A DNA stretch of 32,136 nucleotides from positions 1 through 32,136 of the forward strand of contig CAJQRS010000027.1 in NCBI GenBank assembly GCA_905612375.1. The letters are read 5' to 3'. The DNA is from an uncultured Candidatus Pelagibacter sp. Its GTDB lineage: Bacteria; Pseudomonadota; Alphaproteobacteria; Pelagibacterales; Pelagibacteraceae. Position 1 is the first letter of the stretch, and each line of letters begins with the position of its first letter. The notes below the pieces were generated by a model. That model was not told the origin of the DNA and did not search any database. It saw only the letters and a list, made by a program, of their open reading frames with translations. Below are positions 19,022-26,190 of the stretch, piece after piece. The translations under genes were made by a program, and so were the position numbers.

Positions 19022-20170
19022 CTAATCTTTTTTGGGTGGTGTAACTTCTTCATTGGTTTCCACCTTAGGGTCTTCTATTTGATCTTTTGCAGCTTTTTCT
19101 GGATCAAGTGGATTTCCCTCAATTTTTTTTACTATTACTCCAGCTTTTTCTCTTATTGCCATTTCTATCTCCGCAGCAATCTTGGGGTTTTGCTCTAAAT
19201 AAATCTTAGCATTTTCTCTGCCTTGACCAATTTTTTCACCTTTATAAGCATACCAAGCACCCGATTTTTCAACAATCTCAGCTTTTGCTCCAAGATCAAC
19301 TAATTCACCTACTTTACTAATACCTTTTCCATACATAAGGTCAAATTCTACAACTTTAAATGGAGGTGCTACTTTATTTTTAACTACTTTAACCCTTGTT
19401 GAGTTACCAATAATTTCATCACCATCTTTGATGGCACCAATTCTTCTGATGTCCATTCTTACTGATGAATAAAACTTAAGTGCATTTCCACCTGAAGTAG
19501 TCTCTGGACTTCCAAACATAACTCCAATCTTCATCCTAATTTGATTTATAAAAATCATCATAGTATTTGTGCTTGAGATTGAACCTGTTAACTTTCTTAA
19601 AGCCTGACTCATTAATCTTGATTGAAGTCCTACATGGTGATCTCCCATTTCTCCTTCAATTTCTGCTCTAGGGGTTAATGCTGCAACTGAATCAACAACA
19701 ATTACAGAAATGGAACCTGATTTAACTAACGTGTCAGCGATTTCCAATGCTTGTTCCCCTGTATCTGGTTGTGAAATTAATAATTCTTCTGTATTTACAC
19801 CAAGCTTTTTTGCATAAACTGGATCTAAAGCATGTTCCGCATCTATAAACGCACATATTCCACCTGTTTTTTGAGCTTCAGCTAAAACTTGTAGGGCTAG
19901 GGTTGTTTTTCCAGATGATTCAGGACCATAGATTTCAATTACCCTCCCTTTAGGTAGCCCACCTATCCCAAGCGCAACATCTAAACTTAATGAACCAGTT
20001 GATACCGATTCAATGTCCATTGCTCTTCTTTCACCAAGCTTCATTACAGAGCCTTTTCCAAAATTGTCTGTAATTTGTGCTATTGCTGCATCTAAAGCTT
20101 TAATTTTTTCATTGCCTTCAGCTTGCTGTGCTTTTGTAGTTTTAACTACTTTTAATTTATTTTTATTCAT
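19022..20170 (-). CDS. recA: Recombinase RecA
   Basis: 382 aa; [49 protein letters not shown]. Confidence 0.98.
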
Positions 20171-20248
20171 TTTATGCCTTTTTTATTAAATAATTAGTAT
20201 TCGAATCGTGTTTTAAATGTACACATTTTGTTCTCATTATCAATAGTT

Positions 20249-23437: not shown

Positions 23438-23556
23438 TTTAGTATGGTGATTAAACTATCTCTGGTTGAAGTTATCCACAAGGGCACAAAATGTAGTTTC
23501 AATGTTCACCTTTTGATTCACCTTTGATTCAGTTACAGACTCAAAATACAATCTCT

Positions 23557-23584
23557 TGCGTGTATTGTATAACTACTCTATAAA
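23557..23584 (+). promoter_or_regulatory. Putative umuDC promoter
   Basis: TTGCGT (23557-23562) - 16 bp - TATAAA (23579-23584), placing the TSS in or next to the SOS operator. Confidence 0.45.
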
Positions 23585-23587
23585 TAA

Positions 23588-23602
23588 GAACAAAACTAGA
23601 AC
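23588..23602 (+). promoter_or_regulatory. Alphaproteobacterial SOS box (LexA operator)
   Basis: gaacAAAACTAgaac = exact GAAC-N7-GAAC (reverse complement GTTC-N7-GTTC), ending on the base before the umuD ATG. Confidence 0.85.
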
Positions 23603-23998
23603 ATGAAATTAACTATCCCCTTTTATCTACATAAAGCAGGTGCAGGTTTTCCTTCTCCCGCAACAGACTACATAGAAGAAGATGTAGATCTTAACATTCA
23701 TCTGATCAAAAATGTTCCAGCAACTTTCATTATCAGGGTTCAAGGAAAATCGATGACCGATGTTGGTATTTATGATGGTGACCTATTAGTTGTTGATAGA
23801 AGTTTGAAACCTAAGAATTTTTCTACAGTTGTTGCAAATGTTCATGATGAATTAGTTGTTAAAAGTTTTGTTAAATCAAAGGATGGACAATTTTTGACAT
23901 CAGGTTCAAAAAATATTGAAGATAAAATAATTATTGGTGATGAAATGGAAGTATTTATTTGGGGGGTTGTGACTTATGTCATCCATTCAACGTACTAA
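23603..23998 (+). CDS. umuD: UmuD-like S24 autopeptidase, pol V subunit
   Basis: 131 aa; cleavage-site region [20 protein letters not shown], catalytic Ser motif [19 protein letters not shown], catalytic Lys region ELVVKSF; followed by umuC with 23-bp overlap. Confidence 0.94.
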
Positions 23999-25256
23999 AA
24001 AAATAGCACTTGTTGATTGCAATTCTTTTTACGTTTCTTGTGAAAGGTTATTTAATCCTAAAATTAGAAATAAACCTGTAGTCGTTTTATCTAATAATGA
24101 TGGCTGTATCATTGCAAGGTCTACAGAAGCTAAGGCTCTTGGTATTAAAATGGGAGAGCCTTACTTTAAGGCTAAAGATACAATACTTAAAAATAAAGTG
24201 TATGTTTTTTCTTCAAACTATTCTTTATACGGAGATTTATCTAGAAGGGTAATGAGAACTTTAAAAAGATTTAATCCTGAGTTAGAGATATATTCTATTG
24301 ACGAGGCTTTTTTAGATTTAAGTAATTATCCTGATGATGAAGTTGAAGATGTTGGAAAAGAAATAAGAAGTATCGTTTTGCAGTGGACGGGGATTCCAAC
24401 AAGTATTGGTATTGCGAAAACTAAAACATTAAGCAAGATTGCAAATCATATAGCTAAAAAAAAGCAATCTGGGGTTACTAACTTAATTGGTATTGAAAAT
24501 ATTGATCCAATGTTAGAAAAAATAGAAATCAATGATGTGTGGGGAGTTGGTAAACAGATGACAAAATTTTATCACCAAAATGGAATTTACAATGCTAAAC
24601 AATTAAAAAACATCTCTAATACTTGGATTAAAAAAAGTTCTAGTGTATTAAGTTCTAGAACTGCATTAGAACTTAGAGGTATTCCCTGTATTCCTATAGA
24701 TCTAAAAAGTTCTAAAAGAAAAAGTTGTGTAGTGTCAAGATCATTTGGTACAAGAGTAGAAAGGTTTCAAGAATTACAAGAAGCAGTAGCAAGTTATTGC
24801 TTAAATGCTTCAGAAAAAATTAGATCAGAGTCTTTAATCGCAAAATCAATAACTGTTTCAGTTAGAACAAGTCCATTTCAAAATAGAGGAGTTTATTATT
24901 CAAATGCTAAAACTATAGATTTTCCAATAGCTACCAACAATAGTATTGAAATAGTTAAAACTGCTTTAATTGCGTTAAATGAAATCTTTATAAATGGATA
25001 TAGGTATCAAAAAGCAGGCATAACATTAACTGGTTTAGTTAGTTCAGATGGAAGTAAAAATTTATTCTCCTCAGAAAAAGATGAGAAAATTAAAGGCTTA
25101 ATGAGGTCTATTGATAGTACAAATTACAGATATGGCAGATCAACACTAAGTTTAGCAAGTGCTGGAGTCAATAAAAGATGGAATATGAGGAAAGATCATT
25201 CTTCAAAGATAGATACTGCTAACTTTCACTCACTACCAATAATAAAAGCTATTTGA
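23976..25256 (+). CDS. umuC: Y-family DNA polymerase V catalytic subunit
   Basis: 426 aa; [78 protein letters not shown]. Confidence 0.96.
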
Positions 25257-26190
25257 GCGTAGCTGCAATATTTTCGTCTACACCCCAAATATAAAATCCA
25301 CCTTTTGCTCGATCCCAATCTCTGTATCTACAACTTGAACCAAACCTAGTTTTATGGCCAATTTTTTTATCTGGATTTTTTTTCATCTTGTTAATCACTT
25401 TTATAATTTTTTTATTTGTGTATTTACCTAATTTAAACAAACAGTTTACTTCGTATGGGTCGTAGGGAGTTTTAGAGCTTGGGGTTAAAAAAACTGAGTC
25501 TTGTAATTGTGGGCAATCTGACTTTCCGTGAGCATAAGTTGATCCAAGTTTTCGACCTTGAGTTAATTGTACTTTTTTTTCTTGATTAGAGTAATGTACA
25601 TTGCCACTCATGCCAGGCACACAACTATACCCTCCGCCATTACTATGATGCAGCTCATGCAAAGTTACTAATAATTTTTGCTCATCAGTTCCATTGTTGT
25701 TACTTTTTAAATAAGTTGTACCATAGCCAACACCTGCTTCACCACCATCAACATTGGAAAAGTCAGCAAAATTATAATAGTGTTTTTTAACATTATTCAT
25801 CCCCTTGACTTTGTTTAGAAAGGGTATGATGTCATTGTTTGCCCATTTGTGAAGATCTTTGTGTTTCATATCCATTCTAATAAATGTGATGTCTAATTTT
25901 CCATCTGCTCTATAATCAAATTTATATTTTCTAGCTACCCCATCACTTTTTTTATGTTCAGTCGTAGCTTTTAACATAGCCTCATTTAATTCTAATAAAA
26001 TTTTCTCCATTTTTCCATTAATATCCAATTCTCGATCTTCACTATCAGCTGCTAATAAATAATTAAAATGAATTTGATTGTCGTTTGTTACATCAGGCTG
26101 ATCTTCAAAAAATCTTCCCAGTTTTTGATCAGCTAAAACCAAATTACAAAAAAACAATCCCAGTAAAATTATTCCTAAAGGTTTTTTCAT
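25249..26190 (-). CDS. Uncharacterised exported protein with HExxH zincin-like motif (putative metalloprotease)
   Basis: 313 aa; N-terminal signal peptide [36 protein letters not shown] (HELHH at 25645-25659); four Cys in the mature part. Confidence 0.7.

Follow-up and report, generated by a model that had tools for sequence, protein, structure and literature searches.

A conserved LexA-type operator at the umuD start codon and a predicted compact SOS regulon in SAR11 bacteria

The umuDC locus

The window, a stretch of 32,136 nt from an uncultured Candidatus Pelagibacter sp. (contig CAJQRS010000027.1), carries a umuDC operon on its forward strand. The first gene, umuD (23603..23998, +), encodes an S24-family autoproteolytic subunit of Pol V of 131 aa (NF007621, E=8.4e-40), and the second, umuC (23976..25256, +), a Y-family polymerase of 426 aa (NF002955, E=3.4e-119) with the domains PF00817, PF11799 and PF13438 expected of such an enzyme. 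The score of umuC against NF002955 is 398.5 bits, just under the model cut-off of 431. The start of umuC overlaps the end of umuD, indicating one operon. Alignment of UmuD to its E. coli counterpart (PDB 8gmt, 1umu) predicts cleavage at A14-G15 and a Ser50/Lys87 dyad, and the protein has no DNA-binding domain, the S24 match starting at residue 6. By homology to UmuDC, the product is probably a mutagenic polymerase. The gene immediately following umuC is on the opposite strand (25249-26190, -) and encodes a protein of 313 aa whose N terminus resembles a signal peptide; no Pfam match was found for it. The window also contains recA (19022..20170, -; TIGR02012, E=8.4e-169), a second predicted member of the regulon described below.

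A perfect GAAC-N7-GAAC direct repeat, GAACAAAACTAGAAC, occupies positions 23588..23602 (+), and its last base is followed directly by the umuD ATG at 23603, exactly as an earlier note on this DNA had described. Read on the other strand it is GTTC-N7-GTTC, the alphaproteobacterial LexA operator, here placed at an SOS promoter. Sequence and alignment point to a -35 element TTGCGT (23556..23561, +; TTGACT in some relatives) and a -10 element TATAAA (23579..23584, +) that ends 3 bp before the operator. The earlier note had named the same two elements, with a spacing of 16 bp that has to be corrected to 17. This sigma-70-like promoter would place the umuDC transcription start in or next to the box, roughly a dozen nucleotides before the ATG, and an almost absent umuD leader of about that length is a reasonable prediction. 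The missing Shine-Dalgarno sequence at umuD is not unusual, since a Shine-Dalgarno-like 4-mer is in place at 17% of the long ORFs in the complete genome of a close relative (G018), vs 9% at a control position, with ORF starts that are rough.

The bare pattern is not informative by its frequency. There are 9 perfect copies in the 697,115 bp assembly to which the window belongs, vs 11 for a backwards control, and 2 in the window vs 0.36 expected, a number reached in 6 of 100 shuffles. The second copy in the window (24658-24672) lies inside umuC, is probably a chance coding match and was left out of the regulon, as was a coding match of GAACTTTTATAGAAC inside a purF-like gene of the same genome (L064). 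What lifts the umuD copy above chance is its placement and conservation; at the rate of 9 per 697115 bp, a perfect copy within 50 bp before umuD would arise by chance with a probability of about 6e-4.

Conservation of the umuD box

Upstream regions of umuD were compared from 91 genomes of the family, 69 of the regions being distinct. A perfect GAAC-N7-GAAC precedes umuD in 89 of the 91, always 0-9 nt from the ATG, the gap being 0 nt in 44 genomes, 4 nt in 35, 3 nt in 4, 9 nt in 4 and 7 nt in 2. The two exceptions, L148 and L150, belong to one genus and have GAACAAAATAGAAAC and GAACAAAATAGCAAC. Only perfect boxes enter the column-by-column table, so that its half-site columns are invariant by construction; the unbiased measure of conservation is the 89/91. 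The spacer, too, hardly varies, being mostly AAAACAA or AAAATAA, and most promoter bases just upstream of the box are 50-75% conserved. This alignment of orthologous upstream regions, which the earlier note had proposed as a check, thus bears out near-total conservation of the GAAC repeats. That the match is a functionless, chance occurrence of a short pattern is accordingly very improbable: the copy number in the assembly and the copy inside umuC would allow it, but the box keeps its place across genera, is conserved above its flanks, and the same type of box stands before lexA, recA and nrdA.

LexA in the family

A LexA repressor is widespread, lexA (PF01726) being found in 141 of 148 genomes of the same family. 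These include the closest relatives, G018 and G042 (97% UmuD identity), and the protein of G018 is a TIGR00498 LexA at 164 bits vs a cut-off of 110.95. Within the assembly of the window itself (697,115 bp in 52 contigs, 51.55% complete) lexA was not found, which says little because only 52% of the genome is present; the lexA that the earlier note proposed to look for is known from the relatives and not from the organism's own contigs. The one S24 protein in this assembly is UmuD itself, and another S24-type repressor might bind the box in place of canonical LexA, as UmuDAb does in Acinetobacter. Such an arrangement is most unlikely here, as the UmuD of the window is without a DNA-binding domain, canonical LexA occurs in nearly all relatives, and the lexA gene bears the same type of box.

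Boxes at lexA, recA and nrdAB

A perfect box was present upstream of lexA in all 30 loci first examined, as GAACTTTTATAGAAC or GAACTTTTGTAGAAC, with other variants in a few loci. A second box, GTAC-N7-GTTC, follows downstream and ends 1-3 bases short of the ATG; the exceptions are three loci of one genus, where GTTT replaces GTAC. In the window, the recA box is GAACAAAATGTGTAC (20219..20233, -), 48 bp before the recA ATG, and its second half-site is the variant GTAC. The recA loci examined share this box, one having GAACAAAAGTAGTAC. The same box type therefore occurs at both lexA and recA in this lineage, and the GAAC-N7-GTAC variant is nearly fixed upstream of the two genes; in the complete genome G018, intergenic sites of this form are found at recA and lexA only. 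At recA the GTAC half-site overlaps a possible -10 element (TACATT), which may be the reason for its fixation.

The fourth location is upstream of nrdA, the gene for ribonucleotide reductase alpha (NF006577), where a GTTC-N7-GTTC box is nearly always GTTCTATAAATGTTC; the genome of the window has GTTCTATAAACGTTC (C6:10140) and one relative GTTCTTGTATTGTTC. Most nrdA upstream regions (L063 and others) also share ACAACATRTAGTTGT. We take this second motif to resemble an NrdR box.

In a matrix scan of G018 the best intergenic sites are those at nrdA, lexA and umuD, plus one before an atpG-like gene. No further convincing intergenic member of the regulon was found in this genome, on a scale where true sites are not separable from background below about 16 bits. 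The site before the atpG-like gene, GAACTTAAGAAGAAC, recurs in one close relative; it was set aside, and a fifth regulon member at this gene is possible.

The sRNA upstream of umuD

Upstream of umuD there is a block of about 100 bp that is strongly conserved though the gene beyond it changes. It is a separate and already known element, the SAR11_0636 sRNA of Rfam (RF01827; 23464..23553, -), which is encoded divergently from umuD within one intergenic region and scores 103.1 bits (E=1.1e-20) vs a gathering cut-off of 67. The element was described in HTCC1062 (Meyer et al. 2009, PMC2704228), where it occupies the corresponding intergenic region in the orientation seen here. The main text of that paper gives its neighbors as varying on both sides and names neither umuD nor LexA, whereas within the genus of the window the sRNA is just upstream of umuD wherever both are listed, umuD being the constant neighbor and the other side changing. 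Across other genera it adjoins umuD in some and lies elsewhere in others, sometimes in two copies. A stretch like the RF01827 core (TTCAC-TTTTGATTC) recurs beside rnpB (L162:320-420, on contig C40 of the same genome, and L163:300-400), in L162 with TTATCCACA nearby.

Two other readings of this region were rejected. The block contains a perfect TTATCCACA and three GANTC sites, and was considered as a replication origin; the GC skew of G018, however, has its extremes at 308 kb and 996 kb and umuD is at 622 kb, no cluster of DnaA boxes was found at the umuD locus, and Rfam identifies the block as RF01827. Several genomes lack both the sRNA and umuD, and co-loss as a reading of this was likewise discarded: the joint absence suggests assembly gaps, because recA is also missing in the two of these genomes that were checked for it (G104 and G114).

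On the minus strand of the window TTGTTC-N16-TATACA can be read as a promoter for the sRNA, its -35 TTGTTC sharing bases with the box. A two-way SOS module, in which LexA at this box represses both umuDC and RF01827, is nevertheless unlikely, and SOS control of the sRNA is possible but unsupported; if true, it would make the sRNA damage-inducible where sRNA and umuD are neighbors. It is far less likely still that the box is conserved for the sRNA promoter and not for LexA. The sRNA and umuD are neighbors across the whole genus and in several others, which would fit such an explanation, but in genera with the sRNA at another locus (L133-L143) umuD still has its box, and none of twelve stand-alone sRNA copies examined has a LexA box in the 90 bp upstream.

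Comparison with known systems

The umuDC operator is of an ordinary, known kind and follows the standard alphaproteobacterial arrangement. The LexA regulon of Caulobacter crescentus likewise has LexA as repressor and a direct-repeat operator with a 7-bp spacer (GTTCN7GTTC). Compared by box and not by gene list, the SAR11 set differs in looking very small (lexA, recA, umuDC, nrdAB) and in its GAAC-N7-GTAC variant, which is conserved both upstream of recA and in the second box of lexA. With E. coli it shares a umuD-umuC operon, here predicted to be under LexA, and the predicted self-cleavage of UmuD before a GFPSPA segment. The operator is different, a GAAC direct repeat in SAR11 and TACTG(TA)5CAGTA in E. 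coli, and the SAR11 UmuD has a shorter N terminus, with predicted cleavage at A-G rather than C-G.

A LexA-controlled umuDC operon in SAR11

Very probably, then, the 15-bp site is the LexA-repressed operator of umuDC, and the same LexA controls lexA, recA and nrdAB. We infer from position and similarity to known systems that a LexA dimer bound to GAAC-N7-GAAC would cover the predicted transcription start, immediately past the -10 element, and keep umuDC from being transcribed. Upon DNA damage, RecA loaded on single-stranded DNA would lead LexA to cleave itself, freeing the operator and allowing a umuDC transcript whose leader is about a dozen bases long. Cleavage of UmuD, giving Pol V, would presumably be promoted by RecA as well. 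The same repressor acting on its own gene, on recA and on nrdAB would make up a compact regulon of four operons.

Published expression data are in line with this proposal. RNA-seq of HTCC1062 infected by phage HTVC027P shows induction of recA, lexA, umuD and umuC, and in the same infection nrdA rises 3.12-8.87x and nrdB 2.53-5.83x (PMC12753301); every gene of the predicted LexA set is among those induced. In the passages covered here, the authors discuss nrdAB as nucleotide supply, without a tie to LexA. Induction during phage infection is no proof of LexA control. In a microarray study of late iron stress, lexA, recA and mucA cluster together (PMC2864753). Together with the conservation of the box and the presence of lexA in the family, the published co-induction of umuD, umuC, recA and lexA supports the suggestion, already made from the window alone, that LexA control of umuDC has been retained in a streamlined marine genome. 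No published LexA operator of SAR11 was found in the literature covered, which mostly excludes subscription journals, and priority is thus not established.

Overall, SAR11 seems to have retained an SOS network of very small size, which includes the genes of a nucleotide-making enzyme. The site at umuD is a candidate operator for an SOS response whose induction has been observed before in a bacterium that ranks among the most abundant in the sea. What goes beyond the known arrangement, and is worth testing, is the compactness of the regulon and its link to nrdAB. Placing ribonucleotide reductase under the same LexA, as proposed, would offer a host-side reason for the induction of nrdAB under a phage without nrd genes of its own, and a regulon of four operons would be small enough for complete testing.
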